Source: Chromobacterium haemolyticum
GTDB taxonomy: Bacteria > Pseudomonadota > Gammaproteobacteria > Burkholderiales > Chromobacteriaceae
Length of the DNA: 60,752 bases
NCBI RefSeq assembly: GCF_002081825.1
Contig: NZ_MUKU01000031.1
Location: 1-60,752 of the forward strand
Direction: 5' to 3'
This document shows positions 9,954 to 58,402 of the stretch, in pieces; the first letter of the stretch is position 1; each line of letters starts with the position of its first letter. A program made the translations under genes and the position numbers. Under the pieces are notes generated by a model, which worked only from the letters and a program-made list of their open reading frames with translations, was not told the DNA's origin and did not search any database.

Positions 9954-9957
9954 CATC

Positions 9958-11373: not shown

Positions 11374-11380
11374 GGCGGAG

Positions 11381-11399
11381 GCCCCGCGTGGGCTTTTTT
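11381..11399 (+). terminator. Weak Rho-independent terminator after eboF
   Basis: GCCC-CGCGT-GGGC followed by TTTTTT, 8 bp after the eboF stop. The stem is only 4 bp, so efficiency is uncertain. Confidence 0.45.
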
Positions 11400-11611: not shown

Positions 11612-11714
11612 GAAGAAAAAGAGGCCTGCAAGGCGCGGCTGAACTCGCGATTTGCTAGCGTCAAATCGCTCAAACAAAGCAGCCGCTTAAAACCTTGCAG
11701 ACCCCTTTTTCTCC
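11612..11714 (+). other. Multi-stem structured element A
   Basis: A long imperfect hairpin. The outer arm is GGCCTGCAAGG (11623-11633) with CCTTGCAGACC (11693-11703), extended by AGAAAAAG/CTTTTTCT. The middle stem is GCGGCTG (11635-11641) with CAGCCGC (11680-11686). The inner stem is GCGATTTG (11647-11654) with CAAATCGC (11662-11669), closing a CTAGCGT loop. Unpaired parts (AACTC, CTARCGT, TTAAAA) are shared with element B while the stems differ. It lies in the 1.07-kb gap between eboF and the next gene, where no convincing protein gene is seen. Confidence 0.7.
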
Positions 11715-11906
11715 GGCGCGCCCCGAGGGGACACCTGGGCGCTACACGAAGTGGTCTTTTTTTGAAAAGAAAGAGTGATTTAGCTTTGCTGGCTAGTTCT
11801 GTGGATAACTATCCAGTTTGACCCTGCCTGTGGATATCTAAGACAAATCAAGAATAAACCACGTATCCGACGCACCCTGGGTCCCTTCAAGCCTGCCGTC
11901 GGGTGG

Positions 11907-11986
11907 CAGGCCCGAGGTTTTAAGCGGCTGCCTGTTCGAGCAGCGCGACGTTAGCGCGCTGCGAGTTCAGCCGCGCCTCGGGCCTG
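11907..11986 (-). other. Multi-stem structured element B, inverted relative of A
   Basis: Read on the minus strand, an outer stem CAGGCCCGAGG/CCTCGGGCCTG (perfect, 11 bp) encloses a middle stem GCGGCTG/CAGCCGC. The inner stem GCAGCGCG/CGCGCTGC closes a CTAACGT loop. Layout and single-stranded segments match element A, but the outer and inner stems have different, still complementary sequences. An extra hairpin GCCTGCC/GGCAGGC (11891-11911) abuts it. Confidence 0.7.
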
Positions 11987-12040
11987 ACGGGTCCCGGCGG
12001 GAAGCCGTAGGCCAGGCTTGCAGGGTGGCCTTTAGGAGTG

Positions 12041-12072
12041 GAGAGGATATTTGGCCAAGCAAATATCCTCTC
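12041..12072. other. 13-bp perfect hairpin in the eboF downstream gap
   Basis: GAGAGGATATTTG pairs with CAAATATCCTCTC around a 6-nt GCCAAG loop. No T-tract follows on either strand, so a simple intrinsic terminator is unlikely. Around 12252-12275 there is a further CTACGCAG/CTGCGTGG hairpin. Confidence 0.6.
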
Positions 12073-12439
12073 CCTGCTCGCCGGGCAGCCCCGGCAATGA
12101 AAATCATTATCCGCGTAGCGGATACAAAACCCACACACCTAGCCACACCAACCACCCCACCTTGACCCCAACCGCCTCCTCGGCAACAATCCCCCCGTTG
12201 CCGCCCACACGCGGCACACGGGATTGGCGTCCCGTCGCTAGCATTATCCCCAGGCCTACGCAGCGTGCTGCGTGGGCTGCTTTGCCATGGCAGTGCCATT
12301 CGGCAGGCGTGTGGGAGGAGAGTGCCATGCACTCGCCGGTTTAATGCTAGCCCGGTACGCCAATCCGCTCACGCGCCTGCCTCATACCTCAGCTTCTCTC
12401 GGCAGGTGGTTTATCTTGTGTCACAGCAGGAGAAACACC

Positions 12440-12889
12440 ATGCATCACGCTCAAAACTTCCCCCGTCGTCGTCGCTACAAACTGCACTCGCTGGAGCAGC
12501 AGGAAGCCTTGCTCCCCTTTGTTCGTTTCTGCCCCGGCCGCACCTATCGGCATTACTGGCAAATGCCCACGCCCAGCAAGGACCACCCCTCCAATGTCAG
12601 CTACGGCCGCGAATGCGCGGCCCACCTGCTGCAATGGATGAAGGACAACCGCGAATACGTCGGCAAGGGCCTGCTCAGCCGCGTGGCGCGCGACATCGAT
12701 TTTGACGACCGCGACGGACGTGGTCAGTGGATGGGCTTCTTCAACTATCTGGAAATCATGATGCTGTTGGGCGCCGACCGGGTCCGGGTCTATCGCCATG
12801 TGGATAGCCAACATCAGCTCTATCTGGCGCTGGGACAAAGGCTCAAGCTGGAAGCGCGTTTCCGTCGCATCCGCCTGCGCAATCGCTAA
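12440..12889 (+). CDS. Small basic protein of unknown function
   Basis: 149 aa, starting at the ATG behind CAGGAG (about 8 nt). It has a basic N-terminus (FPRRRRYKLH), a central aromatic segment (CPGRTYRHYWQMP) and a basic tail (RFRRIRLRNR). No signal peptide, membrane span or recognised domain. It reads as a real gene because the ribosome site, codon bias and length are coherent, but I cannot name a function. It is convergent with katB. Confidence 0.6.
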   Translation: MHHAQNFPRRRRYKLHSLEQQEALLPFVRFCPGRTYRHYWQMPTPSKDHPSNVSYGRECAAHLLQWMKDNREYVGKGLLSRVARDIDFDDRDGRGQWMGFFNYLEIMMLLGADRVRVYRHVDSQHQLYLALGQRLKLEARFRRIRLRNR

Positions 12890-12966
12890 CCTAAGCAGGT
12901 GGGTGGAGCCGTAGGCGATACCCACCAAACCCCGCCGACACCGCTGCCACAGCGCGGCGCGCGCGC

Positions 12967-12996
12967 AAAAAAACGGGGCGGCCTTGGGCCGCCCCG
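12967..12996 (-). terminator. Rho-independent terminator of katB
   Basis: On the minus strand, CGGGGCGGCC pairs with GGCCGCCCCG around a 3-nt loop and is followed by a T-run. It lies about 20 bp beyond the katB stop. Confidence 0.85.
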
Positions 12997-13016
12997 CTTC
13001 ACTCAAGCGGCTACGC

Positions 13017-14549
13017 TTATTCCTGCAACAGCGCCGCCCTGCGCTCAATCCCCTTCGCGTCCACCTTCAAGGCCTTGGCCAGACGCTCGCCGTACTGGCG
13101 GTCCGCCTTGTAGAAGTGCGACAACATCACATCGCGGGTCTCGGCATTGCGCACCTTGGCCAAGTCGCCGGACAGATTGCGAATCAGGTCCGCCTGGTCC
13201 TGCGCGCTCAGCGAGCGGTAGAACTCGCCGGCCTGCTGGAAGTTCAGCGTTTTGGCGATGGCCTCTTGCTGGGTGTTGCCCTGCAAGGGCAGGCGGCTGT
13301 GCTTGAACTGCGGGTCTTGCGGCTTGGGAGCCAGCCGGCTGGGCTCGTAATTGACGCTGCCCTGACGGCCGGAGGCGTTTTGCGCGCCGTCCTGATTGTT
13401 GTTCACCACCTCAACCCGCGGGCGGTTGACCGGCAGCGCCTGGAAATTGGTGCCGACGCGGTGCATCTGGGTGTCCAGATAGGAGAACAGTCGGCCTTGC
13501 AGCAGGCGGTCTTCCGAGGCCTCGATGCCCGGCACCAAGTTGGCCGGCGACATCGCCACTTGCTCGGTGGCTTCGAAGAAGTTGGCCGGAATCCGGTTCA
13601 GCGTCATGGTGCCCACCTTGCGCTCCGCCACGCCGGTCCACACCTTGGTGGGGTCCAGCGGGTTGAAGGCGAAGCGGTTCATGTCCTCTGGCTGGATCAG
13701 CTGCACGTACAAATCCCAGGACGGGTAGCGTTTCTGTTCGATGCTTTGCAGCAGGTCCGCGGTGGCGTGGCCAACCGATTGGCCCTGCACCTTGGGCAGT
13801 TCGTCCGGGCGCAGATTGCGCTCGCCCTGGCGCGATTTCCAGGTGAACTTGGCGTATTGGTAGCGGCCGTCGGCGGCCACTAGTTTCAGCGCGTGCACGC
13901 TGCTGCCGTTCATTTCACGGTAATTGGCCGGGGTGCCGTAGTTGGAGTACACCCGGGTCAGCATGTGGGTGGATTCCGGCTGGTGGGAGAAGAAGTCGAA
14001 GACGCGGTTGGGGTCTTGCTCATTGCTCACCGGGTCCGGCTTCAGCGAGTGCACCATGTCCGGAAACTTGATCGCGTCGCGGATGAAGAACACCGGCAGG
14101 TTGTTGCCCACTAGATCCCAGTTGCCTTGCGCGGTGTAGAACTTGGTGGCGAAGCCGCGCGGGTCGCGGTCGGTTTCCGGCGCGCCGCGGCTGCCTATCA
14201 CGGTGGAGAAACGCACGAACACCGGGGTTTGCTCGCCCTTGCGGAATACCAGGGCGCGGCTGACGTCTTGCAGCCCCTCGCTGGCGACGAAGACGCCGCC
14301 GGCGCCCACGCCGCGCGCATGCACCACGCGTTCCGGGATGCGCTCGCGGTCAAAGCGCTGCAGCTTTTGCAGCAGTTGAATGTCTTGCAGCAGGGTGGGG
14401 CCGTTGGGGCCGGCGGTTTGGCTGTTCTGGTTGTCGCCCACCGGCGCGCCGTTGTCCTGGGTCAGGACTGCGGCTTGGGTCAGAGCGGCGCTACAAGCCA
14501 GCGCCACGGTGAAAAGCTTGCGGTTCACGGAAAAGGTCAGAGCAGACAT
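13017..14549 (-). CDS. katB: Periplasmic monofunctional catalase
   Basis: 510 aa. The second ATG (14549) is preferred, because GGGAG lies 5 nt before it and overlaps the earlier ATG at 14561. A signal peptide (VALACSAALTQA) indicates export. The haem-catalase signature FDRERIPERVVHARG contains the catalytic His, VGNNLPVFFIRD the distal Asn, and RLFSYLDTQMHR the proximal Tyr haem ligand. It converts hydrogen peroxide to water and oxygen in the periplasm, in the manner of Pseudomonas KatB. Length is usual for small-subunit catalases. It is a monocistronic unit with its own terminator. Confidence 0.93.
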   Translation of the reverse strand: MSALTFSVNRKLFTVALACSAALTQAAVLTQDNGAPVGDNQNSQTAGPNGPTLLQDIQLLQKLQRFDRERIPERVVHARGVGAGGVFVASEGLQDVSRALVFRKGEQTPVFVRFSTVIGSRGAPETDRDPRGFATKFYTAQGNWDLVGNNLPVFFIRDAIKFPDMVHSLKPDPVSNEQDPNRVFDFFSHQPESTHMLTRVYSNYGTPANYREMNGSSVHALKLVAADGRYQYAKFTWKSRQGERNLRPDELPKVQGQSVGHATADLLQSIEQKRYPSWDLYVQLIQPEDMNRFAFNPLDPTKVWTGVAERKVGTMTLNRIPANFFEATEQVAMSPANLVPGIEASEDRLLQGRLFSYLDTQMHRVGTNFQALPVNRPRVEVVNNNQDGAQNASGRQGSVNYEPSRLAPKPQDPQFKHSRLPLQGNTQQEAIAKTLNFQQAGEFYRSLSAQDQADLIRNLSGDLAKVRNAETRDVMLSHFYKADRQYGERLAKALKVDAKGIERRAALLQE

Positions 14550-14676
14550 TGGCACTCCCATAAATTATTAGAACATTTACTAAGGGAGTGGCCATTATCG
14601 GAACTGGCAATAGTTTTGTTAAATCTTAAATTACAATTTGTTTGATAGTGTTTATTAATGGGCGACGACGACGGCG

Positions 14677-15255
14677 TTACTTTTCCGCCAACAGCCGCTC
14701 AATGCGCCGGTCTGGCACCAGCCAGATCAGGGCCATCAGCACGTACATCGCCGCGGACAGCCATTCCCAGTAAAAGGCGGCGGCGATGCCGATCAGGTAG
14801 CACAGCGGGGAGATCTTGCCCTTGATGTCCTTGCCCAGCGCCTCGGACAGCCGGGTGCGGTTGCCGGGCAGACACAGCAGGGATTGCTGCATCAGCCACC
14901 AGGCCAGCGCGCACATCAGCAGCACCACGCCGTACAGGGCCAGCGGCAGCGGGGCGAAGTGGTTTTCCCCCATCCAGCCGGTGACGAAGGGGATGAGGGA
15001 CAGCCAGAACAGCAGGTGCAGATTGGCCCATAGCACGCGGCCGTCCACGCGCTGGATGGCGTGATAGAAATGGTGGTGGTTGTTCCAGTACAGGCCCACG
15101 TAAATGAAGCTGAGCACGTAGCTGAGGAAGACCGGCCAGCGGTCCTGTAACGCCGTCCAAGTGGTGTCGTGCGGCACTTTCAGCTCCAGCACCATGATGG
15201 TGATGATGATGGCGAGCACGCCGTCGCTGAAGGCTTCCAGCCGGTTCTTTCCCAT
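14677..15255 (-). CDS. TMEM175-family (DUF1211) potassium channel protein
   Basis: 192 aa. It begins KNRLEAFSDGVLAIIITIMVLEL, the family hallmark (RxxxFSD) in helix 1. About six hydrophobic helices follow, with a WNNHHHF motif after helix 2. Bacterial members form tetrameric, potassium-permeable channels. AGGGA precedes the ATG. The 5' side (15256-15440) holds an R1 fragment and an R2 copy. Confidence 0.88.
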   Translation of the reverse strand: MGKNRLEAFSDGVLAIIITIMVLELKVPHDTTWTALQDRWPVFLSYVLSFIYVGLYWNNHHHFYHAIQRVDGRVLWANLHLLFWLSLIPFVTGWMGENHFAPLPLALYGVVLLMCALAWWLMQQSLLCLPGNRTRLSEALGKDIKGKISPLCYLIGIAAAFYWEWLSAAMYVLMALIWLVPDRRIERLLAEK

Positions 15256-37703: not shown

Positions 37704-37848
37704 TAGAGCCTGTTCAAAGTCTCGTGAGCAAGAGCGAGACAAGGCGAAAACGAGCGAAAAAGCGGAATGTACAAGTGGTACATGAGCATTTTGAGCTTGT
37801 TTTCAACGCCGTATCGCTGAAGCGCAGCAGACATTGAACAGGTTCTTA
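37704..37848. repeat. R1 repeat, full-length copy at the end of pntB
   Basis: TAGAGCCTGTTCAAAG...TTGAACAGGTTCTTA with inverted ends and core GTACAAGTGGTAC. Orientation is opposite to the first copy. Its last three bases are the pntB stop codon on the minus strand. Confidence 0.9.
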
Positions 37849-44588: not shown

Positions 44589-45491
44589 TCAATCTCCTTT
44601 TTCGCCGCGCGGCGGCAGGCCCAGGTGGATCCGGCCTTCCGCCGGCGTCAGCACCCGCGCGCCCATCAGGTCCAGTAATTGGCGAGCCTGTTCCACCAGC
44701 GCGCCGTTGCTGGCGTACACCCCTTTGGCCAGATACAGATTGTCTTCCAGCCCCACCCGGACGTGGCCGCCCAGCAAGGCCGCTTGCGCCACCATGGGCA
44801 TTTGCAGCCGACCGATGCCAAAGGCCGCCCACTGCGCGCCCGGCGGCAAGCTGTCCACCATGGCCTTCATCGTGGTGGTGTCGGCCGGCGCGCCCCAGGG
44901 AATGCCCAGGCAGAGTTGGAACAGCGGCGGCGCGTCCAGCAGCCCCTCGCTCAATAATTGTTTGGCGAAGCGGAGGTGGCCGGTGTCGAACACTTCCAAC
45001 TCCGGCTTGACGCCCAGTTGCTGAATGCGCCGCGCGCCGTCGCGTAGCTGCCCGGGCGTGGCCACGTAGATGAAGTCGCCATCGCCGAAGTTGAGCGTGC
45101 CGCAGTCCAGGGTGCAGATTTCCGGGCGCAATTCCTCCACATGCAATAGGCGCTCCAGACCGCCGACCAGATCCGTGCCCGGCCCCAGCGGCAGGGGCCG
45201 CTCGCCGGGGCCGATCTCCACGTCGCCGCCCATGCCGGCGGTCAGGTTGAGAATCATGTCCACGCCGGACGCGCGGATGCGCTCCACCAGCTCCCGATAC
45301 AGCGCCGGCTCGCGGCTGCCCTTGCCGGTGAGCGGATCGCGCACATGGCAGTGCACCACGGTAGCGCCGGCGCGGGCCGCCTCCACCGCGGCGGCGGCGA
45401 TCTGCTTGGGCGTGACCGGTATCGCCGGGTGCTTGCCCACGGTGTCGCCCGCGCCGGTGACGGCGCAGCTCAGCACGATATCCCGGTTCAT
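44589..45491 (-). CDS. cdhC: 3-dehydrocarnitine cleavage enzyme (BKACE family)
   Basis: 300 aa. BKACE marks: [49 protein letters not shown] (zinc His residues), [11 protein letters not shown] and [14 protein letters not shown]. It reacts dehydrocarnitine with acetyl-CoA to give acetoacetate and betainyl-CoA. It starts in an ATGA overlap with caiX and ends 1 bp before cdhA. Confidence 0.92.
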
Positions 45492-46444
45492 GGCCCGCTC
45501 CCTTCGCCTTGGCGCAGATAGGCCTGGACCGCGGGCAGGCCGGGTTTGCCGTCAAAGGAGGAGACGCCGTCCAGCCAGCGTTCCAGCGGCTGAGGGTTGG
45601 CTTGCAGCCATTGGCGCGCGGCGCGGGCGGGCGGGACCCGTTTGAGGATGGCGTTCATCACCTGGTTTTCCATGTCCAGGCTGAAGCGCAGCTGGCTGAT
45701 CAGCTTCCCGGCGTTGGGACAGCGCTGCATGAAGCCGTTGGCCACCACGGTATAGACCTTGGAGCCGCCGTATTCGGCGCCAAAGACCTGGTCGCCGCCG
45801 GCCAGATAGCTTAGCCGCATCAGGTAGTTCATCGGATGCGGCTCCCAGGCGAGGAACACCACCATGCGTTTTTGCCGGATGGCGCGGGATACCGCGGCCA
45901 GCATGCCGCTTTCGCTGGACTCCACCAGGGTGAAGCCTTTCAGGCCGAAATCGTTGTTGGCGATCATCCGCTTGATGATGGCGTTGCCCTGGCTGCCGGA
46001 TTCTATGCCGTAGATCTTGCCGTCCAGCTGTTTGCGAAAGCGCGCGATGTCGGCAAAGGTGCGCAGGCCCTGTTCCGCAAGCTGGTTGGGCACTGCCAGC
46101 GTGTATTTGGCGCCGCTCAGATTGGGTTCGGGCAGTACTTGCAGCGCCTTGGCCTGTAGAAAGGGCGTGATGGCCGGCGTTTGCGACGGCACCCAGTAGC
46201 CCAGATACACGTCGATCTGCTGATTCTTGAGCCCGGTGAAGGCGATGGGTTCCGAGGCGAGCTGAGTGCTGGGCTGGTAGCCCAAGCCTTGCAGCACGGC
46301 GGAGGCCAGGCCGGTGGTGGCCGCGATATCGGTCCAGCCGATGTCGGCGAAGCGGATCTTGCGACAGCTTTCCGGCTCCGCGGCCCAGGCCTGGGCCGCC
46401 AGCGCGCCGCACAGCAGCGCCAGCCAGGGGGTAGAGAGTTTCAT
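45488..46444 (-). CDS. caiX: Carnitine/betaine-type periplasmic binding protein
   Basis: 318 aa from the ATG at 46444, with GGGAGA upstream; an earlier ATG at 46522 is less likely. Signal peptide [14 protein letters not shown]. OpuAC-type features: [43 protein letters not shown]. The aromatic residues (Trp/Tyr) in these blocks are the usual cage for a quaternary ammonium. First gene of caiX-cdhC-cdhA-cdhB. No permease genes are present, as in Pseudomonas, where CaiX docks onto a general transporter. Confidence 0.9.
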
Positions 46445-46629
46445 GTCGGCTTCTCCCGCAGGCGGTTCCGTCGCCGGCGGACAGCGCCGGGCCGCTGGGT
46501 TGGAAGGCATGGCCGTGACCATGTTGACGCCGCGGACTCTGAGGGAGCCTGGGCGTAAGGACCAATCTAGGCGGGCGGCGCCGAATGTTAGCGCACGGGA
46601 GCGACCAATGCCGTCACTAGGGCGACCGG

Positions 46630-46674: not shown

Positions 46675-48747
46675 TTACGGAGTCAGGTACTGGCTGCCGT
46701 CATAAGCGCCGATGAAGGTCCAATTGCCGTTGCTGACGCCGGTGGTGGGAAAGTAGCCGTAGTTCGCGTTCTTCAGCACAAAGTAGTCGCGGGTGGAGCG
46801 ATAGGGATTGTCGTAGACATAGACGTCCCCCACCGTGCCCGTTCGACTCTCGCTCCAGCTGTTCAAACGGCTCTTGCGCTGCGAGGTCAGCATCGCCAGG
46901 TCGTAGGACTGGGTGGCGGACAGCGGGGCGCCGTTGTAGCTGTCCAGGAACTGCCAGCCGGCGTTGCTGCCGCCCTCGGTCGGGAAGTAGCCGTAGCGCG
47001 CGGTTTTCAGCTGGAAGTAGTCGCGGGTGTTGCGGTAGGGGTTGTCGTAAACGTAAACGTCGCCCGGCGTGCCCGTGCGGCTCTCGCTCCATTTTTGCAG
47101 CGATCCCTTGTTGTACGCGGCCAGAATCATCGCGTCGTAGCCTTGCGCGCCGGGGCGGCGCAGCTGGATGGCGCTGCCCAGCGTCATCTGGGTGACGCCA
47201 TCGCTGACGGTGACGCGAATCGGCGCGTACGCGCCTTGCAGCGCTTGCGCGGGCGCGGTCAGCGTCGCCGTCGCGCTGTTGCCGGGCGAACCGCCGAAAC
47301 CGGGCGGCAACTGCCACTGGTAGCGCAGCGTCTTGCCGCCGGCGTTGCTGACCCGCGCCTCCACGCTGAACGTGCCGCCGGCGTTGACAGAGGCCGGCAG
47401 CGACACGCGGCCGGCCAGGCCCTGCTGTTCAAGCGGGTAGCGATAGAGCAGGCTTTCGTCGCGGTTTAGCCAGATCGGCTGCGACAGGGCGGGCAGGCTG
47501 CTCAGGGTTTGCCGGGTGGTCGTGTTGGCCTTCAAGCCCCATTTGTCGAAAAACGGGGCCAGGCTGTGGCCGGCGACGCGGCTGGTTTCGATGATGAAGC
47601 GCTGGCGCTTGTCCTCGTCGCTGGCGGGCAGCTCGGCGAAGGGCATGCTGCGGTAGCGCTGCCCCAGCCGGCTGTAGAAATCCTTGCCAAAAGCCAGGTC
47701 CAGCTGCCAGAACATCGCCGCGCGTACGAACAAGTCCGCTTGCGCGTCGTAAGACGGCTGCGCCTGGTTCAGGTGCTGGCGCACCAGGTCCCATTTGCCG
47801 CCGGTTTCCAGCCGCGAACGCTGGCCCAAGGCCCGCTGCACATAGAGCGAGGTCAGGTTCACCGTTACCTCGGTCTGGTCGTTCCAAGTCATCGCCGGCA
47901 TCTGGTAGTGATGGCCCAGCTCATGCCAGGGGCCCCAACCGTCCTGCTGCAGCAATTTGGAATTGGCCACCGAGCCGGCGCCGCCGACATTGGTGCCCAG
48001 CCAGTAATTGCTGGCCGACATATAGCCGCCGCTGCTGTCCGGTTTGGTGACGAACTGGTACTGGAACGGCGTCGCCGCGTGCGGGTAAGGGTTGCCGGCG
48101 GCCAGGCCGTATTGTTCCTCGGCCAGGGTGACGATGCGGTCCCACAGCGTCATGGTGGCGGTCGGATCGTCCACTTGCTGGCGCAGGATGGACTGCGGCA
48201 TGGTCACGATCATGCGCTTGCCCACCAGCTCCGCGTAGGGCTCGGCCGACAGGCGGTTCAGCATGGCGTTCCAGTCCGCGCTGCTGTGCTGACCCAGCAC
48301 GAAACGCGGTATTTCACGGCCGCCGCTTTGCAGCGTCGCCACGATCTTGCCGCTGCCGGGCTGGCTGCGCGGCGCGAAATAGATCACGCCGTCGTTCTGC
48401 GCGGTGATCTGGTTGAGGCCGGGGCGCAGCTGGACCACCTGATTGGACGGCATCGCGCTGTTGGCGTTGGCGATAGGCTCCAGCCAAAGCTCAGGAGGGA
48501 GATTGGGCGGCGTGCCCTGGTAGGCGATATTGACGCTTAGCGCTTCGCCTTTGCGCGCCCAATAGCCGGTGGACTGGGTGGGATGGGTGAGAAAACCGCG
48601 GCGGTGCGCCAGCAGCCACTCGCTGGGATCGCCGCGTTGTTCCAGCGTCAACTGGCGCGGCGCGTCGGCGACGGCGGGCAGAGAGAACAGACTGGCGGCC
48701 ATAGCGGCGCCGAGCCACAGACAGGAACTGAGCTTAGATGCGTGCAT
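46675..48747 (-). CDS. Secreted M60-family (enhancin-like) metallopeptidase
   Basis: 690 aa with a signal peptide (cut near AVADA). The zinc site is HELGHHYQ (His275, Glu276, His279), with Glu293 13 residues on, matching the M60 pattern HExxH-x(8-28)-E. A domain near 440-535 looks Ig-like. The C-terminus holds two 78-residue repeats (about 535-612 and 613-690), each with WSESRTGT, GDVYVYDNPYR, TRDYF and YGYFPT. M60 enzymes cut mucin-type glycoproteins; the repeats may bind sugar or surface. It is a likely extracellular factor, with its own promoter. Confidence 0.87.
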   Translation of the reverse strand: MHASKLSSCLWLGAAMAASLFSLPAVADAPRQLTLEQRGDPSEWLLAHRRGFLTHPTQSTGYWARKGEALSVNIAYQGTPPNLPPELWLEPIANANSAMPSNQVVQLRPGLNQITAQNDGVIYFAPRSQPGSGKIVATLQSGGREIPRFVLGQHSSADWNAMLNRLSAEPYAELVGKRMIVTMPQSILRQQVDDPTATMTLWDRIVTLAEEQYGLAAGNPYPHAATPFQYQFVTKPDSSGGYMSASNYWLGTNVGGAGSVANSKLLQQDGWGPWHELGHHYQMPAMTWNDQTEVTVNLTSLYVQRALGQRSRLETGGKWDLVRQHLNQAQPSYDAQADLFVRAAMFWQLDLAFGKDFYSRLGQRYRSMPFAELPASDEDKRQRFIIETSRVAGHSLAPFFDKWGLKANTTTRQTLSSLPALSQPIWLNRDESLLYRYPLEQQGLAGRVSLPASVNAGGTFSVEARVSNAGGKTLRYQWQLPPGFGGSPGNSATATLTAPAQALQGAYAPIRVTVSDGVTQMTLGSAIQLRRPGAQGYDAMILAAYNKGSLQKWSESRTGTPGDVYVYDNPYRNTRDYFQLKTARYGYFPTEGGSNAGWQFLDSYNGAPLSATQSYDLAMLTSQRKSRLNSWSESRTGTVGDVYVYDNPYRSTRDYFVLKNANYGYFPTTGVSNGNWTFIGAYDGSQYLTP

Positions 48748-48971: not shown

Positions 48972-49062
48972 CCCGCAGTTCAAAGCCTCGCGAGCAAGGG
49001 CGAGACAGGGCGTTGCCCCCGGGAAGCGCAGCGGGCTTTGAACCGGTTTTCAGCGCCGCGCC
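48972..49062. repeat. R1 repeat, diverged
   Basis: AGTTCAAAGCCTCGCGAGCAAGGGC...GGGCTTTGAACCGGTTTTCA has R1-like inverted ends and the GCGAGCAAGGGCGAGACAGGGC block, but lacks the GTAC core. 48748-48971 holds the M60 promoter side and no gene. Confidence 0.6.
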
Positions 49063-49849: not shown

Positions 49850-49865
49850 CTGTCCAATAGGGCAG
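49850..49865. promoter_or_regulatory. Perfect CviR-type quorum-sensing box
   Basis: CTGTCCAATAGGGCAG fits CTGNCCNNNNGGNCAG at all ten fixed positions. It sits in the AT-rich 496-bp gap (49553-50048), just upstream of a consensus TATAAT. Its centre (49857.5) is about 43 bp before the expected start site, the spacing of LuxR-type activators that touch RNA polymerase. Confidence 0.8.
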
Positions 49866-49900
49866 TCAATTCAAACAAAAAGCCTGTCTATAATCTCGCC
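49866..49900 (+). promoter_or_regulatory. Predicted promoter of the MFS-LuxE-LuxC operon
   Basis: TATAAT at 49889-49894 is a perfect -10. The -35 region 17 bp upstream (TCAATT at 49866) is poor, as expected for an activator-dependent promoter. The DNA from about 49680 to 49900 is strongly AT-rich, unlike the rest of the window. A leader of about 150 nt precedes the MFS start, and no gene is seen in it. Confidence 0.65.
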
Positions 49901-50048: not shown

Positions 50049-51305
50049 ATGAGTCAAAACGTAATTCAATCCTTGCTGCCTATTTCCCGAGGCCGCGCGC
50101 TAGGCTTTTGCCTATTGCTGGCCGCTTTCGAACTATTGACTTATATCGGCAGCGATATGGTGATGCCGGCCATGCTGCAAGTCGTCGCCGACTTGAACGC
50201 CGACGCCCGTCACGTGCCCACGGCGCTCAACGCCTACCTGCTGGGCGGGGTGGCTCTGCAATGGCTGATTGGCCCATTGTCAGACCGTTATGGCCGCAAG
50301 CCGCTGCTGGTGGCCGGCGCCGTTGGCTTCGCCCTGGCTTGTCTCGCCGCCGTCGGCAGCCGCGATATCGAGCTGTTCAATCTGCTGCGCTTCATCCAGG
50401 GCCTGTCTCTGGGCTTCGTGATGGTGGTCAGCTACCCGGCGCTGCAAGAAGCGTTTCCGGAAAAAGACGCGGTGCGGCTGATGGCCTTGCTGGCCAATAT
50501 CGCGCTGCTGTCGCCGCTGATCGGCCCGCTGCTGGGCAGCTTGTTGCTGGGCCTGTTGCCGTGGCGCGGCTTGTTCGCGCTGATCGGCGTATTGGCGGCC
50601 TTGGTGGCAGTCGGCCTGTGGCGCTGGATGCCGGAAACCCTGGGCGTGGAGCGGCGCGACGGCAGCCGGCTGGCGGCGAGCCCGCTGCGTCTGGGCCGCA
50701 GCGCGCGTCAGTACGCGGCGCTGCTGCGCAACGTCCCCTTCATGCACGGCAGCGTGGCGTTGGGCCTGCTGTCCATTCCACTGGTGGGCTGGATCGGTCT
50801 GTCGCCGCTGCTGCTGATGCGCGGCCTGGGCTTGTCCGGCATCGAATATGGCCTGTGGCAGCTGCCGGTGTTCGGCGGCTTGATCGCCGGCAATCTGACC
50901 TTGAACCGGCTGGCGGTCAGCCTGGAGCTGGAGCGGGTGCTGCGGCTGGCGCTGTGGCCCTTGTTCGGCGGCCTGGCGGCGATGCTGGCGCTGACTTGGT
51001 CCAGCGGCGCGCTGCCGGCGCTGGCGGCGGGCCTGACGCTGTACGCCTTCGGCCTGGGCCTGGGCCACGCCACCCTGTACCGCTTCACCCTCTACGCCAG
51101 CGACAGCGGCAAGGGCGCGGTGGCGGCGATGCTGGGCATGATCTCCACCGCCTTGCTCGGCCTGGGGTGCAGCGCGCTGGCCTGGCTGGGCGCAGGCGCC
51201 GGCCTGCAAGCCTTCGCCGGCTGGGCCGCGCTGGGCGCCGGCCTGGCGGCCTGGCCGCTGTGGCGCTTGCTCAAGCAGCGCGCTTACGCGCTGCAAGCGG
51301 CTTGA
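50049..51305 (+). CDS. MFS exporter, Bcr/CflA-MdfA type
   Basis: 418 aa, about twelve membrane helices. Helix 1 has ELLTYIGSDMVMPAML, close to the MdfA motif with an acidic residue in TM1. The loop 2-3 motif GPLSDRYGRKPLL is the DHA12 MFS signature. It exports small molecules by proton antiport. As first gene of the operon, it probably exports the product or gives self-protection. Confidence 0.9.
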   Translation: MSQNVIQSLLPISRGRALGFCLLLAAFELLTYIGSDMVMPAMLQVVADLNADARHVPTALNAYLLGGVALQWLIGPLSDRYGRKPLLVAGAVGFALACLAAVGSRDIELFNLLRFIQGLSLGFVMVVSYPALQEAFPEKDAVRLMALLANIALLSPLIGPLLGSLLLGLLPWRGLFALIGVLAALVAVGLWRWMPETLGVERRDGSRLAASPLRLGRSARQYAALLRNVPFMHGSVALGLLSIPLVGWIGLSPLLLMRGLGLSGIEYGLWQLPVFGGLIAGNLTLNRLAVSLELERVLRLALWPLFGGLAAMLALTWSSGALPALAAGLTLYAFGLGLGHATLYRFTLYASDSGKGAVAAMLGMISTALLGLGCSALAWLGAGAGLQAFAGWAALGAGLAAWPLWRLLKQRAYALQAA

Positions 51306-51334
51306 ATCCCCATTCTCACTCCCGGAGCTCCACC

Positions 51335-52459
51335 ATGCTGAACCATGTCGACGCGCTGTGCGCGCTGGAACACCCTTATCGCGCCGATGCCGACGGCGAC
51401 CGTCTGTTCGACGCCGCCATGCGCGAGCTGAGTCATTACCACTGCGAACACACGCCCGGCTATCGCCATTGGCTGCAGGCCAACGGCCTGAACGCCGCCG
51501 CGCTGGAGACGCTGGACGATTGGTCGCGGCTGCCGCCGCTGTTCGCCAACTACTTCAAACGCCAACTGGTGGTAAGCGCCGCCGGTCAGGACGCGCTGGA
51601 GCTGACCTCCTCCGGCACCACCGGCCAGAAAAGCCGAATGCGTTACGACGCGCGCAGCCTGGGCGCGGCGCAAAGCATGGTGGACCGCATCTTCCGGCAT
51701 TACGGCTGGGACACGCCGCAACAGCCGTGCAACTACCTGCTGCTCAGCTACGAACCGGCCGGCGCCATCACCCTGGGCACCGCCTACACCGACCAATTCC
51801 TGTGCAAGTACGCGCCGGTGAACCAGGCCTGTTACGCCTTGCGCCACAACGGCCACGGCAACGAGTTCGACCCCTTCGGCGTGATCCGCGCCTTGCAGGA
51901 CTTCGCCGAACAAGGCCTGCCGGTGCGCATGCTGGGCTTCCCCGCCTTCCTGTGGTTCGCACTGGAACGCATGCGGGAACTGGGCCTGCCGCCGCTGCAA
52001 CTGCACCCGGAATCGCTGGTGTTCCTGGGCGGCGGCTGGAAAACCCACGCGGACCGCGCCATTCCCAAGGCCGAGCTGTACCGGCGGCTGGGCGAGCAAC
52101 TAGGCATCCCGGACGCTCGTTGCCGCGACGGCTACGGCGCGGTGGAGCATCCGGTGCCTTACGTGGAGTGCGAACGCCATCGCTTCCACCTGCCCAGCTA
52201 CGCCCGCGCGGTGATCCGCGACACCGCCAGCCTGCGGCCGCAACCCTACGGCGCAGCCGGCTTCCTCAACCTGCTGTCGCCCTACATCACCTCCAGCCCG
52301 GCCCACAGCATCGTGATGGGCGATCTGGCCGTGCTGCATCCGGCCGAGAGCTGCGGCTGCGGCCTGGCCACCGACTGGTTCGAACTGCTGGGCCGCGCCG
52401 GCACCAGCAAGAGCCGCAGCTGCGCGGTGGCCGCCTCTGAATTGATCAAGGAATCCTGA
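51335..52459 (+). CDS. LuxE-like acyl-protein synthetase
   Basis: 374 aa from the ATG at 51335 (GGAG 7 nt upstream). It has the LuxE/PaaK adenylate-forming P-loop LTSSGTTGQKSR (residues 90-101), FLGGGWKTHADRAIPKAELYRRL, DGYGAVEHPVPYVECERHRFH and the C-terminal CGCG...LLGRAGTSKSR block. In luminous bacteria LuxE activates a fatty acid and passes it to LuxC. Residues around GAVEHP are those of LuxE rather than CoA ligases. There are no luxA/luxB genes, so the aldehyde serves another purpose. It ends 1 bp before the LuxC fusion. Confidence 0.88.
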   Translation: MLNHVDALCALEHPYRADADGDRLFDAAMRELSHYHCEHTPGYRHWLQANGLNAAALETLDDWSRLPPLFANYFKRQLVVSAAGQDALELTSSGTTGQKSRMRYDARSLGAAQSMVDRIFRHYGWDTPQQPCNYLLLSYEPAGAITLGTAYTDQFLCKYAPVNQACYALRHNGHGNEFDPFGVIRALQDFAEQGLPVRMLGFPAFLWFALERMRELGLPPLQLHPESLVFLGGGWKTHADRAIPKAELYRRLGEQLGIPDARCRDGYGAVEHPVPYVECERHRFHLPSYARAVIRDTASLRPQPYGAAGFLNLLSPYITSSPAHSIVMGDLAVLHPAESCGCGLATDWFELLGRAGTSKSRSCAVAASELIKES

Positions 52460-52460
52460 T

Positions 52461-54884
52461 ATGTATCTATTGAACGGAACACTGAACACCGCGGTGGACG
52501 CCGCCGCCGCGCTGGCGCAATTGCAAGCTGGCCTGCCGGCCGCGCTGGCCCGGCCGCCGGCCTTGGACGCGGTGCTGGATTGCGCCGAGCGCTTCGCCGC
52601 CGCGCTGCCGCAACGGGCGGAGGCCCTGGGCCTGGACGCCGCCGCCGTCGACGCGCTGCAAGGCTTTTGCCGGCGCGAGGCGCTGGAAGCCAAGGTCCGC
52701 CGCGAGCTGGGCGAACAGGCCTTCTCGCTGCGCCGCTTCGACTACCGTCAGTCGCGCTTCGAAAGCTGGCGGCCGCTGGGCCTGGTGGCCCACATCACCC
52801 CGGCCAATGCGCCGCTGCTGCCCTTCATGGCGGTGTTGGAAAGCCTGCTGGCCGGCAACGTCAACTGGCTGCGCCCCAGCGGCAGCGACCAAGGTCGCAG
52901 CGCGCGGCTGCTGGCCGATTTTCTGAGCCACGACACCGCCGGCGTCCTGGCCGCCCACGTGGCGGTGCTGCCGCTGGCCACCGACCAACTGGCCGGCCTG
53001 CTGGCCCGCGCCGACGCGGTGTCCGCCTGGGGCGGCGACGCCGCGCTGGAGGCGATCCGCCGCCAAGTGCCGGCCGGCTGCCGCTGGATACCCTGGGGCC
53101 ACCGCATCAGCTTCGCCTACCTGGACCCGGGCGCGGCGACGGCGGCCGATTACGACGCGCTGGCCGACGACGTCTGCCGCTTCGACCAGCAAGCCTGCTC
53201 CAGCCCGCAATGCCTGCTAGTGGACAGCGAGGACGAAGCCGTCTTGCGCGGCGCGGCCCAGGCCATGGCCGCCGCGCTGGCGCGCCGCGCGCCGGCTTGG
53301 CCGGCCTTGCAGCCGGACGTGCAGGAAGCCGCGGAAATCTCCAGCCAGCTGGCCATGTTGCGGCTGGACCAGTCTTTCGCCGGCGTGGCCGGCGCGGTGG
53401 AGCAGGGCGAGGGCTGGCGCGTGGCCTGGGCGCAGCGCCAGGAACTGGCGGCCTCGCCGCTGTTCCGCACCCTGCAACTGCGGCCGGCGCCGCGCGCGCG
53501 GCTGGTGGAACTGCTGCTGCCCTGGCGCACCCATTTGCAAAGCTGCGGCCTGATCGCCGCGCCGGAACAGCTGCCGGCGCTCAGCCGCCTGCTGCTGGAC
53601 GCCGGCGTTGGCCGGCTGTGCCCGGCGGGAGCGATGCACGACGGCTACGCCGGCGAGCCGCACGACGGCGTCTACGCGCTAAGCCGGCTGACGCGGCGGG
53701 TGTCGGTCAGCCTGCGCGACGGCCAACTGCCCGGCCATGCGACGCTGGACGCCTTGCCGCCGCCGCCGGCCGGCCTGGACGCGCTGCCGGTGATGGACAA
53801 GGCGGCCTTCCAACAAGCCGAGATGGGGCCGGCCGCCCAGCTGTTCTTCCGCAGCGGCGGCAGCAGCGGCGAACCCAAACTGGCCGGCTTCAGCTACCGC
53901 GACTACCACCGCCAGATGCAAGCGGCGGCGGACGGCCTGCTCGCCGCCGGCCTGGACCCGGCGCAAGACCGGGTGATGAATCTGCTCTACGGCGGCAATC
54001 TCTACGGCGGCATGCTCAGCTTCTTCACCATCCTGGACAAGCTGGGTGTGCCGCAATACCCGATGGGCGGCCCGGTGGACGACGATTTCAGCCAGATCGC
54101 CCACTTCATCGTGTCCCGCGGCGTCAACACCCTGGTGGGGATGCCGGGCACCTTGCAGCGCCTGTTCGAATGCGAGGAAACCGCGCTGCGTGCCTACGGC
54201 GGCGTGCGCAAGCTGTTCTGCGGCGGCGAACACATCAGCGACGGCCAACGCCAGTTCCTGACCGGCTTCGGCGTGGAACTGATCCGCTCCGCGATGTACG
54301 GATCGGTGGACGCCGGCCCGCTGGGCCACGCCTGCGGCCACGGCTGCGACGGCGAATTCCATCTCTTGGCCGACATCCAGTGGCTGGAAATCCTGGAACA
54401 GGACAGCGACCGCCCCGCAGCGCCCGACGCCGTCGGCCGCCTGGCCTTCACCTCGCTGGCGCGAGAGGGCCAGCCGGTGCGGCGCTACGATCTGGGCGAT
54501 CTGGGCCGCTGGCTGCCCGGCCACTGCGGCTGCGGCCTGCCGTCGCCGCGCTTCCAGCTCACCGGCCGCCACGGCGCGCTGCTGCGCGCGGGCACCATCT
54601 TTGTCAATCCAACCGAGCTGTCCGCGCCGCTGGGCCTGGCTTTGCAATGGTTGGTGGACCACGCCGCCAACGGCTGCGACCGCATTCGGGTGCTGGCCGA
54701 CGGCGACGCCGAGCAGGTGCGCACCCGTCTGCTGCAACACCCGATGCTGAACGAGGTCGTCAGCGGCGGCCTGCTGCAACTGGAAGTCATCGCCGCCCCG
54801 GCCAGCCAGTTCCAGCGCCATCCGCAAAGCGGCAAGACCCCGCTGGTGTTGGACCTGCGCCGCAAGACGGAGCCGGCGCGATGA
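52461..54884 (+). CDS. LuxC acyl reductase fused to a PaaK-like adenylate-forming domain
   Basis: 807 aa. Residues 1 to about 440 are LuxC-like: PLGLVAHITPANAPLLPFMAVLESLLAGN is the NAD(P)-site region, and FDQQACSSPQ holds the acyl-accepting Cys246. Residues from about 444 are a second enzyme: FFRSGGSSGEPK (462-473) is an adenylate-forming P-loop, followed by YGSVDAGPLGHACGH and RYDLGDLGRWL. The layout predicts reduction of an activated acid to an aldehyde and, in the same chain, activation of another acid. LuxC is normally about 480 aa and free-standing. Both halves lie in one uninterrupted frame. The end overlaps the next gene by ATGA. Confidence 0.87.
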   Translation: MYLLNGTLNTAVDAAAALAQLQAGLPAALARPPALDAVLDCAERFAAALPQRAEALGLDAAAVDALQGFCRREALEAKVRRELGEQAFSLRRFDYRQSRFESWRPLGLVAHITPANAPLLPFMAVLESLLAGNVNWLRPSGSDQGRSARLLADFLSHDTAGVLAAHVAVLPLATDQLAGLLARADAVSAWGGDAALEAIRRQVPAGCRWIPWGHRISFAYLDPGAATAADYDALADDVCRFDQQACSSPQCLLVDSEDEAVLRGAAQAMAAALARRAPAWPALQPDVQEAAEISSQLAMLRLDQSFAGVAGAVEQGEGWRVAWAQRQELAASPLFRTLQLRPAPRARLVELLLPWRTHLQSCGLIAAPEQLPALSRLLLDAGVGRLCPAGAMHDGYAGEPHDGVYALSRLTRRVSVSLRDGQLPGHATLDALPPPPAGLDALPVMDKAAFQQAEMGPAAQLFFRSGGSSGEPKLAGFSYRDYHRQMQAAADGLLAAGLDPAQDRVMNLLYGGNLYGGMLSFFTILDKLGVPQYPMGGPVDDDFSQIAHFIVSRGVNTLVGMPGTLQRLFECEETALRAYGGVRKLFCGGEHISDGQRQFLTGFGVELIRSAMYGSVDAGPLGHACGHGCDGEFHLLADIQWLEILEQDSDRPAAPDAVGRLAFTSLAREGQPVRRYDLGDLGRWLPGHCGCGLPSPRFQLTGRHGALLRAGTIFVNPTELSAPLGLALQWLVDHAANGCDRIRVLADGDAEQVRTRLLQHPMLNEVVSGGLLQLEVIAAPASQFQRHPQSGKTPLVLDLRRKTEPAR

Positions 54885-56155
54885 AGGCCGCCACGGAGGC
54901 CGGGCTGCGCCGGCTGGTGGAACACGCCCGCGCTCATTCGCCGTTTTTCGCTGAGCTGTACCGCGAGCTGCCGGCGGACTGGACGCTGAGCGATCTGCCG
55001 CTGATCGAGCCGGCGGACTACTGGCGCCAATGCCAGCCATTGGAAAACTGGCCGGTGCTGAGCGGCCCGCTGGCGGACGGCCATGTGTTCAAGACCGGCG
55101 GCTCCACCAGCGAGGGCAAGCTGTCGGTGTTCCGCCGCGACGAATGGCAGGCCTTTGTGCGCGCCTTCGGCCAGGGCCTGGGCCGGCAACTGCTGCCCGG
55201 CGACCGCGTCGCCAACTTGTTCTTCGCCGGCGATCTCTACACCAGCCTGCTGTTCATCCACGGCGCGCTGTCGCACTCGCCGGCGCCGGTGGTGGAGTTT
55301 CCCTTCACCTGCAATGTCGAGGACGCCGCGCTGGCCGACGCCATCGACACGCTGGACATCAATGTGCTGGCCGGCGTGCCGGTGCAACTGGTGCGCTTCG
55401 CCAGCTGGCTGCAACAGGCCGGCCGCGCGCTGCCCGGCGTGCGCTGCCTGCTTTACGGCGGCGAAAGCCTGTTCGCCGAGCAACTGGCCCTGCTGGGCCG
55501 GGTGTTTCCCAATGCCCGTATCGGTTCCATAGGCTGCGCCAGTGTGGACGCCGGCCTGATCGGCGCCGCCGGGCCGGATTGCGCCCAGGGCGAACACCGC
55601 GTGTTCGACGCCGACACCATCGTCGAAATCATCGACGAGGCCAGCGGCCTGCCGATCACGGAGCCGGACCGCAAAGGCCTGCTGGTGGTCAGCAATCTGC
55701 AACGGCGGCTGATGCCGGTGATCCGCTACCCCACCGGTGATCTGGCCTGCTGGCGCGAGCCGGCCGGACGGCCGGAACGCAAGTTCGCGCTGCAAGGGCG
55801 CGCCAGCCGCGGCCACCGCGTGCGCGTCTGCACGCTGTCCTTGTTCCCGGACGAGCTGGACCCGCTGCTGCGGGGGCAGGACGGTGTGTTGGCCTGGCAG
55901 CTGCTGGTGGGCCGCCGCGACGGCGTCGACACCCTCAGCTTGCGAGTGGCCAGCGAATACGCGCCGGCCCCGGCGGCGGAGCCGCTGCGCGAACGGCTGC
56001 TGACGGCGCAACCGGCCTTGGCCGAACTCTGCCGGCAGGGCCTGCTGCGGCTGGACGTCGCTTATTGCGCGCCGGAGGCCATGCTCACCCATCCGCGTTC
56101 CGGCAAGCTGATGCGGGTGGTGGACCAGCGCCGCTACGACGAGGTGGCGGCATGA
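54881..56155 (+). CDS. Second PaaK/LuxE-like adenylate-forming enzyme
   Basis: 424 aa, start in an ATGA overlap with the LuxC fusion. The P-loop is FKTGGSTSEGKLSVFRRDEW (residues 70-89), with IGCASVDAGLIGAAGPDC as the A5-type motif and IRYPTGDLACW as the Asp that contacts ribose. A C-terminal subdomain (ERKFALQGRASRGHRVRVCTL) follows. Together with the fused domain and LuxE it is the third acid-activating unit in this operon. Substrate unknown; the family favours aryl or acyl acids. Confidence 0.85.
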   Translation: MKAATEAGLRRLVEHARAHSPFFAELYRELPADWTLSDLPLIEPADYWRQCQPLENWPVLSGPLADGHVFKTGGSTSEGKLSVFRRDEWQAFVRAFGQGLGRQLLPGDRVANLFFAGDLYTSLLFIHGALSHSPAPVVEFPFTCNVEDAALADAIDTLDINVLAGVPVQLVRFASWLQQAGRALPGVRCLLYGGESLFAEQLALLGRVFPNARIGSIGCASVDAGLIGAAGPDCAQGEHRVFDADTIVEIIDEASGLPITEPDRKGLLVVSNLQRRLMPVIRYPTGDLACWREPAGRPERKFALQGRASRGHRVRVCTLSLFPDELDPLLRGQDGVLAWQLLVGRRDGVDTLSLRVASEYAPAPAAEPLRERLLTAQPALAELCRQGLLRLDVAYCAPEAMLTHPRSGKLMRVVDQRRYDEVAA

Positions 56156-57063
56156 GCATCGCCATCCGCGATTTCCAGCCGGACGACGCCGCCGGCGTCA
56201 GCGGCTTGTTCCGCGCCATCTACGGCGAACACTACGTCTATCCGGACGTCTATCTGCCGTCTATGATCCGCCGCCACAACGCCGCCGGCCGCTGGCATTC
56301 CGCCGTCGCCGTGAGCGGCGGCCGCGTGCTGGGCCACGCCGCGCTGTGGCGCGACCCGCATTGTCCGGGCAGCGCCGAGCTGGCGCTCAACGTGGTGCAT
56401 CCGGACGCGCGCGGCCAGGGCCTGGCCACCGCGCTGGGCCGCCATCTGCGCGCCCAAGGCGTCGCCCTGGGCCTGAGCATGCTCACCATCAAGCAAGTGT
56501 CGTCCCACGGCCAGAGCCAGCGTCTGGCCAAGACTCTGGGCTTCCACACCACCGGCCTGCTGCTGGACTACGTGGCCTCGCCGTTTGGCCAGCCGCAGCC
56601 GGAAAGCATCGTGTTGGGCTGCCTGCCGCTGCAAAGCCGGCCGATCCCGGCCTTGAACTGGCCGGCGGCGTGGCGGGAATGGCTGACGCCGCTAAGCCGC
56701 GCCTTCGGCAGCGCGCCGCCGCCGGCGCTGGCACCTGCCGGCGGCCTCAGCATCGCTAGCCACGGCCGGCGGCTGGAAGTGGTGCTGGAGGACATCAGCG
56801 GCGGCCGGCTGCGGGAAGTGGCGGCGCTGCCGGCCGGGCGGCTGGTCTACGTCAGGCTGGCGCTGGGGCCGGACGCCCCGCGCGCGGCGGCCGTGCTGCA
56901 ACAGGCCGGCTTCGTCTGCGGCGGCCTGGTGCCCGGCCCGGACGGCAGCTGGCAGGCGTTGCTGCTGCGGGGGCATGGTCAGCAGGAACTGGCGCTGAGC
57001 TGCCCTTTGGCCAATCGTCTGCATCTGTTGAGCCGGCAGGTGGCGGCGGCGGATGCCGCCTGA
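56152..57063 (+). CDS. GNAT acetyltransferase with a C-terminal extension
   Basis: 303 aa, start in an ATGA overlap with the ligase. The GNAT fold covers residues 1-165: IRDFQPDDAAGVSGLFRAIYG and LALNVVHPDARGQGLATALGRHL, where ARGQGLA is the acetyl-CoA loop. Residues from about 190 (LEVVLEDISGGRLREVAAL) form a second part with a weak GNAT-like look. It may acetylate the product or act on the acyl intermediate. Last gene of the operon. Confidence 0.82.
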   Translation: MSIAIRDFQPDDAAGVSGLFRAIYGEHYVYPDVYLPSMIRRHNAAGRWHSAVAVSGGRVLGHAALWRDPHCPGSAELALNVVHPDARGQGLATALGRHLRAQGVALGLSMLTIKQVSSHGQSQRLAKTLGFHTTGLLLDYVASPFGQPQPESIVLGCLPLQSRPIPALNWPAAWREWLTPLSRAFGSAPPPALAPAGGLSIASHGRRLEVVLEDISGGRLREVAALPAGRLVYVRLALGPDAPRAAAVLQQAGFVCGGLVPGPDGSWQALLLRGHGQQELALSCPLANRLHLLSRQVAAADAA

Positions 57064-57359
57064 GGCTTCTGTCCCTCTCCGTTCCTTGACGGCCTCTGCC
57101 AGCCTGTTTAGGCTTGGTCCCGCGTCGTGCTCAATCACACGGCGCCGGGCTGGCAAGCCTATTAATCATTCCTCCGCAGATACATCGGTGCGCTTTGGCA
57201 CCGTTACGTCTGCTGCCACGCCGTACCCATTCGGGGCGGGCCGTGGCAGGGAGTCCTCTGGACTGCCGGTCTTTGTGGAATGAACCGGTCTTGCCACCTT
57301 GTCACGTGCCTGTCCTAGCCTCGCCTGGGCAGGTTTCCAAAGATGACATGGAGACCGTA
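57064..57359. other. Intergenic region with several small hairpins
   Basis: No gene is supported. It contains CGGTGC-GCTTTG-GCACCG (about 57186-57203) and an imperfect CTGCCACGCC/GGCCGTGGCAG stem enclosing GTAC (about 57212-57250). The first may serve as the end of the upstream operon, though the T-run is lacking. Confidence 0.4.
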
Positions 57360-57740
57360 ATGACCTTTTCCACCTTTCCCCCCGCGATTCCCCCTCCCGC
57401 CTGTCCCCATTGCGCAGGCCAACACCCCACGCCCGCCGCTGTGCCGGTGATGGAGCAGCTACACCTTTGTTCCCAGCGCTTGCCCGCCGCCGCCGGCGAT
57501 GTGACGCTGCTGGGCGAATTGGGCCAGCAGCTCAACCATTGCTATGTCGAACTGGACACCGCCCTGCTGCGCGGCGTGATGGACATGCGCGCCGCCCACA
57601 CCGGGCTTTTAGCCTTGCTGACTTTGCTGGAGCGACGCGACGAGCCGCTGCTGTTCAGCAGCGAAGAAGCCTTGGCCTTGCTGGAGCCGATACAGCAGCG
57701 CTTGAAACAAGGCTTGGATCACTTCAACCACCTGCTGTGA
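57360..57740 (+). CDS. Small protein of unknown function, with a CPHC motif
   Basis: 126 aa. The ATG at 57360 has GGAG 6 nt upstream, better than the ATG at 57348. The N-terminus is Pro-rich with ACPHCAGQHP, a possible half zinc-binding site; the rest is helical and Leu-rich (LLGELGQQLNHCYVELDTALL). No known family is recognised. It is 17 bp before another small gene, so they probably form a pair. Confidence 0.62.
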   Translation: MTFSTFPPAIPPPACPHCAGQHPTPAAVPVMEQLHLCSQRLPAAAGDVTLLGELGQQLNHCYVELDTALLRGVMDMRAAHTGLLALLTLLERRDEPLLFSSEEALALLEPIQQRLKQGLDHFNHLL

Positions 57741-57757
57741 TTCCGGGGAGCATTGCC

Positions 57758-58147
57758 ATGATGAAACTGCTGATCCAGCACAATCAGGCTCTCAAGCGCG
57801 CCGCCCGTTTGATCATTGCTTATGAGATGCGGCTGGGGGTGATTTCTCTGGCGGAGAACAACCCAATCCACCCGGCCAACACCGAGGACATTCATCAGGA
57901 AATCAAACAGGCGCTGGCGGATTTCCTCCATTGGCGCAAATGGCAGGGCGAGCACGAACCTGCCCGCGCCGCTTTATTGCAGATGTGGGCGTCCGGGAAA
58001 TGGACCAACCGCGACACCTGTGTGCGGCAGTGCTATCGCCTGGCGGGGTTCAAGAATATGGTCACCGCCCGCCAGGCGCTGGTGGGCGCGCCGCCGCCGG
58101 AACCTTTAGCCATCCAGAGGCAACGCGCCATGTGGGCGGAGCCTTAG
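57758..58147 (+). CDS. Small helical protein of unknown function
   Basis: 129 aa from the ATG at 57758 (GGGGAG upstream; 57761 also possible). It has a helical start (KLLIQHNQALKRAARLIIAYEMRL), and a Trp-rich middle (DFLHWRKWQGEHEPARAALLQMWASGKWTNRDTC). No family is recognised. The TAG stop is the first triplet of an R1 repeat. Confidence 0.62.
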   Translation: MMKLLIQHNQALKRAARLIIAYEMRLGVISLAENNPIHPANTEDIHQEIKQALADFLHWRKWQGEHEPARAALLQMWASGKWTNRDTCVRQCYRLAGFKNMVTARQALVGAPPPEPLAIQRQRAMWAEP

Positions 58148-58402
58148 AGCCTGTTCACGATCTGCTGCGCTTCGGCGATACGGCGTTAAAAACAAGCTCA
58201 AAATGCTCATGTACCACTCGTACATTCCGCTTTTTCGCTCGTTTTCGCCTTGTCTCGCTCTTGCTCACGAGATCGTAAATACGTTCTTTGAACCTGTTCA
58301 AAGGCTGCTGCGCGTGGAAAGTCGTTGCTCGGGGTATGGCATTTTGAAGCGGTTTTGAACGCGGCATAGCCGACGCGCAGCAGATGGTGAACCGGTTGTC
58401 AG
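58145..58402. repeat. Two adjacent R1 repeats
   Basis: 58145-58287 is a full copy (TAGAGCCTGTTCACGATCTGC...AGATCGTAAATACGTTCTT, core GTACCACTCGTAC). 58288-58402 is a diverged copy with ends ACCTGTTCAAAGG and GGTGAACCGGTT and no GTAC core. 58403-58494 holds nothing else. Confidence 0.85.

Follow-up and report, generated by a model that had tools for sequence, protein, structure and literature searches.

The window analyzed here, the whole 60,752-nucleotide (nt) stretch of contig NZ_MUKU01000031.1 (assembly GCF_002081825.1) from Chromobacterium haemolyticum, carries five same-strand genes that encode a major facilitator superfamily (MFS) transporter, a LuxE-type acid-activating enzyme, a LuxC-type acyl reductase fused to a PaaK-type AMP-forming ligase (LuxC::PaaK), a second, stand-alone PaaK (PaaK2) and a GNAT acetyltransferase (Table 1). 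These genes form a tight operon whose coordinates, 50049-57063, have been confirmed, with a 29-nt gap between the MFS and LuxE genes, a 1-nt gap between the LuxE and LuxC::PaaK genes and ATGA overlaps at the two remaining junctions. The G+C content of the operon is 70.4%, compared with 64.6% for the whole window, and comparison with three close relatives indicates purifying selection on its genes (ratio of nonsynonymous to synonymous substitution rates, 0.04-0.22). The operon is real and intact and encodes a pathway of a known kind.

Domain searches and conserved residues, together with an AlphaFold model, support all five assignments. Cys363 of LuxE, which aligns with a C-terminal cysteine of LuxE in 7xc6_E, is conserved in at least 98% of 98 aligned proteins, and the same level of conservation, among 96 aligned proteins, was found for each of Cys246 of LuxC, Lys792 of the fused ligase and Lys409 of PaaK2. 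Domain searches detected no luciferase domain in the five operon proteins or in six neighboring proteins, and no carrier or condensation domains of nonribosomal peptide synthetases (NRPSs) in the five operon proteins. An earlier note, made from the DNA letters alone, had described three acid-activating units, one acyl reductase, an acetyltransferase and an exporter, with neither luxAB nor a carrier protein among the five genes, and the domain searches bear this description out. The same note had allowed for the fusion being a sequencing artefact; gene calls, domain searches, residue conservation and the structure model concur that it is not. An apparent internal stop that suggested split LuxC and PaaK genes in relatives proved to be the terminal stop, and the split was rejected.

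Table 1. Features of the operon and its promoter in the window
Feature	Position	Strand	Remarks
Candidate CviR-type activator site CTGTCCAATAGGGCAG	49850..49865	.	Perfect match to CviR palindrome CTGNCCNNNNGGNCAG; putative function
Proposed -10 element TATAAT	49889..49894	+	23 nt after the CviR box; putative
MFS transporter	50049..51305	+	Most similar to MdfA-type drug efflux; putative exporter of leupeptin
LuxE-type acid-activating enzyme, leupA counterpart	51335..52459	+	Conserved acyl-enzyme Cys363
LuxC::PaaK fusion, leupB counterpart	52461..54884	+	Domain search, conserved residues, structure model
Acyl reductase part of LuxC::PaaK	Pfam LuxC at 52554-53699	+	Cys246
AMP-forming ligase part of LuxC::PaaK	About residues 420-802	+	Lys792
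PaaK2, stand-alone PaaK-like AMP-forming ligase, leupC counterpart	54881..56155	+	Conserved Lys409
GNAT acetyltransferase, leupD counterpart	56152..57063	+	Proposed N-acetyl cap

We identify this operon, with a probability of roughly 0.88, as a leup operon, that is, leupABCD (LuxE, LuxC::PaaK, PaaK2, GNAT) together with the MFS transporter. The founding paper on the leupeptin operon is said to be that of Li et al. 2020. Published data place leupABCD of strain CAV1374 at 315353-321183, with a transporter adjoining, and list the primers leupA_f and leupB_r with a stated product of 1,235 bp (PMC8283571; primer table also in the corrigendum PMC10028735). Both primers match the locus of Klebsiella michiganensis DSM 25444 (L084) with 0 mismatches, at 8924 and 10158, which corresponds to 1,235 bp, with the LuxE and LuxC::PaaK genes holding one site each. 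The CAV1374 interval maps to 8874-14704 of this locus, where the open reading frames (ORFs) for LuxE, LuxC::PaaK, PaaK2 and GNAT span 8872-14699, and the MFS gene lies directly upstream of LuxE at 7576-8835. The primer and interval mapping thus equates leupA with LuxE, leupB with LuxC::PaaK, leupC with PaaK2 and leupD with GNAT. The window proteins share with those of K. michiganensis 71% (LuxE), 55% (LuxC::PaaK), 56% (PaaK2), 46% (GNAT) and 57% (MFS) identity, and with those of Xenorhabdus bovienii T228 60-80% across the four core proteins. Klebsiella oxytoca/michiganensis ATCC 8724 grown with sialic acid yields leupeptin and a lysine analogue from the leup operon (PMC11480411), and leupeptin of X. 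bovienii SS-2004 is described as the product of separate AMP-dependent ligases and a reductase (PMC11212599, citing Li et al. 2020). The predicted product of the window operon is therefore most likely leupeptin (Ac-Leu-Leu-argininal) or a close analogue.

These results bear on the earlier note, which had presented the operon as undescribed and had known of no characterised pathway with a LuxC-PaaK fusion. Neither statement holds, since the gene set and order are those of the published leupeptin operon and leupB is, by primer and coordinate mapping, that very fusion; in substance the operon matches a known cluster with an assigned product, and a MIBiG entry for the gammaproteobacterial leupeptin cluster is cited in PMC10548850. 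A literature search for a LuxE/LuxC/phenylacetate-CoA ligase/acyl-CoA reductase gene cluster had returned no paper, and, judged by titles and abstract openings, none of the retrieved papers that mention both Chromobacterium and leupeptin is about leupeptin biosynthesis.

The fusion was detected (E up to 1e-20) in 15 of 19 Chromobacterium genomes, being full length in 12 and cut by contig ends in 3. A scan of public genomes yielded 376 relatives among 477 pattern matches, and the locus counts given here refer to the best 80 of the 376. These belong to Photorhabdus, Xenorhabdus, Pseudomonas, Chromobacterium, Rugamonas, Iodobacter, Parachitinimonas, Klebsiella, Morganella, Erwinia, Pantoea and Cedecea, along with one Burkholderia record and two further enterobacterial assemblies. 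As to whether the five-gene order is conserved, a check proposed in the earlier note, the core order LuxE - LuxC::PaaK - PaaK2 - GNAT on one strand is kept in all 80 loci, whereas 49 of them have an MFS homologue upstream of LuxE at a distance below 400 bp; it is missing there at the Photorhabdus and Xenorhabdus loci and at L065, L070 and L079. In Escherichia coli genomes, a 'distant'-mode search with the K. michiganensis LuxC::PaaK gene found no match at the DNA level. Plasmid records with matches at E up to 1e-40 numbered six, two each from Salmonella enterica, Streptomyces and Streptantibioticus. On a conjugative IncF plasmid of S. enterica (CP053580.1; L026:9398-15560), the LuxE, LuxC::PaaK and PaaK2 genes are intact in length, the MFS gene is reduced to a remnant and the GNAT match is split over two frames.

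Several points weigh against the leup assignment and its predicted product. The equation of leupB with the fusion rests on CAV1374 primers and coordinates transferred to DSM 25444, where the offsets are 2 and 5 nt; our tree contains X. bovienii T228, not SS-2004; the upstream MFS gene is present in just 49 of the 80 loci; and, with 46-71% identity to the K. michiganensis core proteins, the residues used could differ. The last point also favors a leup-type operon that makes a different peptide aldehyde, with another P1 residue, length or N-cap, instead of leupeptin, as does the variation among leup operons, which includes the lysine analogue of Klebsiella and homoarginine pyrazinones of Xenorhabdus and Photorhabdus (PMC11480411). 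We consider this alternative unlikely, given the position of the window copy beside Photorhabdus and X. bovienii and its identity to the T228 core proteins. The proposal of the earlier note, that an uncharacterised pathway builds a new small molecule out of an aldehyde and one or two activated acids, is compatible with the domain content taken alone; a product built from activated acids and ending in an aldehyde is retained from it, but its novelty is not, because the four-gene set and order are those of the published leupABCD with its assigned product, and as a main explanation this pathway is refuted and highly improbable. Equally hard to credit is a GriC/GriD- or LuxCDE-type enzyme that reduces aryl or fatty acids and has ligases added to it. 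LuxE and LuxC of the window show homology to the LuxC-LuxE complex of Photobacterium phosphoreum (7xc6), but all 80 loci retain two further ligases and a GNAT together with this pair, and the operon matches leup. A GriC/GriD-type aryl acid reductase, which would act on an aryl acid such as 3-amino-4-hydroxybenzoate, was the first guess and was dropped once the neighborhoods pointed to leupeptin.

For the leupeptin pathway, homology, gene order and conservation are established, and the order of the steps and the division of work between the ligases are inferred. The GNAT enzyme would acetylate leucine to form the N-acetyl cap, and the two PaaK-type ligases would turn carboxylates into acyl-AMP for coupling to amines, forming first Ac-Leu-Leu and next Ac-Leu-Leu-Arg through two amide bonds; the fused PaaK is guessed to add arginine, which would place the last coupling beside the reduction. 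The acyl relay mechanism of LuxE and LuxC is known from bacterial bioluminescence. Here, LuxE with ATP would activate the peptide acid, load Cys363 and hand the acyl group over to Cys246 of LuxC, whose domain would use NAD(P)H to reduce it, yielding the argininal. The MFS protein would export the product, which would trap serine and cysteine proteases. According to PMC7714073, the peptide acid is completed first and then undergoes ATP-supported reduction by leupeptin acid reductase, and the LuxE-LuxC pair would do what is described there for this enzyme.

Upstream of the operon, the sequence CTGTCCAATAGGGCAG perfectly matches the CviR palindrome CTGNCCNNNNGGNCAG, the consensus quoted in PMC12114271. 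Perfect sites number 11 in the 5.29-Mb genome versus 6 for a reversed-pattern control, and 201 versus 94 across 19 genomes. The box and its 23-nt spacing to the -10 element are kept in all five loci of the C. haemolyticum group; invariant columns make up 16/16 of the box and 6/6 of the -10 element, compared with 241/434 of the remaining columns, with the nearest flank conserved as well. This spacing centers the box near -43, the position found in LuxR-type activated promoters. Each of the two luxI-type genes of the genome is preceded by a perfect CviR site, at 134 and 428 bases from the domain match, and one of the two has a luxR-type gene as its neighbor. CviR-type quorum-sensing control of the operon in the C. 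haemolyticum group is thus likely on the strength of these motifs, and a CviR-type activator would probably turn the operon on at high cell density in this lineage. Certain counts speak against the box: 2 of the 19 genomes have no excess over the control (11:11 and 14:15), allowing 1 mismatch gives 4 sites in the window versus 4.98 expected, and in the 9 other Chromobacterium loci the best site is degenerate, with 1-4 mismatches, the box and -10 element together exceeding a Markov-resampled background at p <0.05 in 2 of the 9. The terms 'acyl-CoA reductase' and 'phenylacetate' occur 0 times in the main text, with its abridged table, of an RNA-seq paper on quorum sensing in C. subtsugae, a strain in which the presence of the operon was not checked, so no support for quorum-sensing control comes from there; PMC11019928 and PMC9430734 contain nothing on the CviR box. 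In the leup promoter of genome G004, an element of about 147 bp resembling a miniature inverted-repeat transposable element (MITE) lies between the -10 element and the MFS start.

In a 93-row LuxC::PaaK tree, the four rows of the C. haemolyticum group stand apart from other Chromobacterium and cluster with Photorhabdus and with X. bovienii T228 (13 rows; support of 99 in the Shimodaira-Hasegawa-like approximate likelihood ratio test, SH-aLRT), and the same grouping was recovered in a 31-genome tree of four concatenated proteins (10 rows, SH-aLRT 99). A single Chromobacterium leup clade was rejected, as keeping all 12 Chromobacterium rows together costs 101.5 log-likelihood units (approximately unbiased test, p 7.2e-6), in a test for which the group was chosen post hoc after the first tree, both trees being 'quick' and the composition uneven. 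The window LuxC::PaaK is closest to its own group and shares 70-71% identity with most Photorhabdus copies versus 69-73% with other Chromobacterium copies; flanking DNA is common at high identity to its own group only. Judged from the trees, the nearest relatives of the window copy outside the C. haemolyticum group are Photorhabdus and X. bovienii, the latter being the species for which the pathway has reportedly been demonstrated. The trees and identities together point to two leup lineages in Chromobacterium and to movement of the operon between lineages. A record titled Burkholderia multivorans WS-FJ9 (L041) contains a leup operon whose long branch (0.28) lies within the clade of the C. violaceum type.

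Streptomyces is the genus in which leupeptin was first found. A plasmid of Streptomyces sp. NBC_00158 (L027:7994-15435) carries PaaK2, MFS, GNAT, LuxE and LuxC::PaaK genes in a row, and two further plasmid loci (L028 and L029, about 7.8-15.5 kb) have PaaK2, LuxE and LuxC::PaaK homologues, three of the five genes, with the same spacing. The Streptomyces and Streptantibioticus plasmid homologues share with the window 38-41% (PaaK2), 54-58% (LuxE) and 39-43% (LuxC::PaaK) identity. The L027-type set may represent a non-NRPS leupeptin route in Streptomyces. The classical leupeptin acid reductase, which depends on ATP, could be explained by the leup-like sets of L027-L029, which are candidates for it.

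Around the operon, an enhancin-like M60 peptidase (46675-48747) and a glycine-betaine-type binding protein (45488-46522) are encoded on the minus strand. A repeat of about 35 bases at 48978-49012 has more than 20 further matches in the genome, and near relatives are similar. The 1-kb stretch at 57140-58150, with a DUF1484-like gene and a small ORF, has four more near-full copies in the genome at 79-92% identity, plus shorter pieces. At 37706-37845 lies a MITE-like element, about 140 bp long and bounded by inverted ends, and its ends also occur near 58147-58305 and in L121 (8 matches of the end motif vs 0.29 expected).

The analysis found a CviR box without mismatches that is followed after 23 nt by TATAAT, two separate leup lineages in Chromobacterium and a Streptomyces plasmid that encodes all five functions. 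The leup copy of this Chromobacterium looks new, as does its promoter, which is apparently wired to quorum sensing and suggests a regulatory input for the leup operon. A false lead is removed, in that a cluster whose domain content seemed without precedent is a known operon for a protease inhibitor, and the leupeptin pathway is placed in an opportunistic and environmental lineage outside Gammaproteobacteria. In a wider picture, to which we give somewhat less than even credence, the C. haemolyticum group and the Photorhabdus/X. bovienii lineage would have exchanged the leup operon across class boundaries. In the C. haemolyticum group the operon would stand under direct CviR-type control and would yield a leupeptin-type aldehyde that is secreted, may have a residue preference of its own and shields a dense population from its own or host proteases.

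Among known systems, leupABCD of K. michiganensis/oxytoca (PMC8283571, PMC11480411) has the same four-gene order and upstream MFS gene as the window operon, but its sequence is diverged and its reported induction is via sialic acid metabolism (PMC11480411), where the window instead has a CviR box. The leup loci of Photorhabdus and X. bovienii are identical to the window in core order and, unlike it, have no homologous MFS gene directly upstream. The LuxC-LuxE complex of P. phosphoreum (PDB 7xc6) shares the LuxE and LuxC folds, with the acyl-relay cysteines aligned, whereas the window operon has no luciferase genes among its five, has LuxC fused to PaaK and is expected to act on a peptide acid. 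NRPS-made peptide aldehydes of the antipain and chymostatin type (PMC10548850, PMC11212599) are protease inhibitors of the same product class, but the window operon would reach this class with five genes that include neither an NRPS nor a carrier protein.

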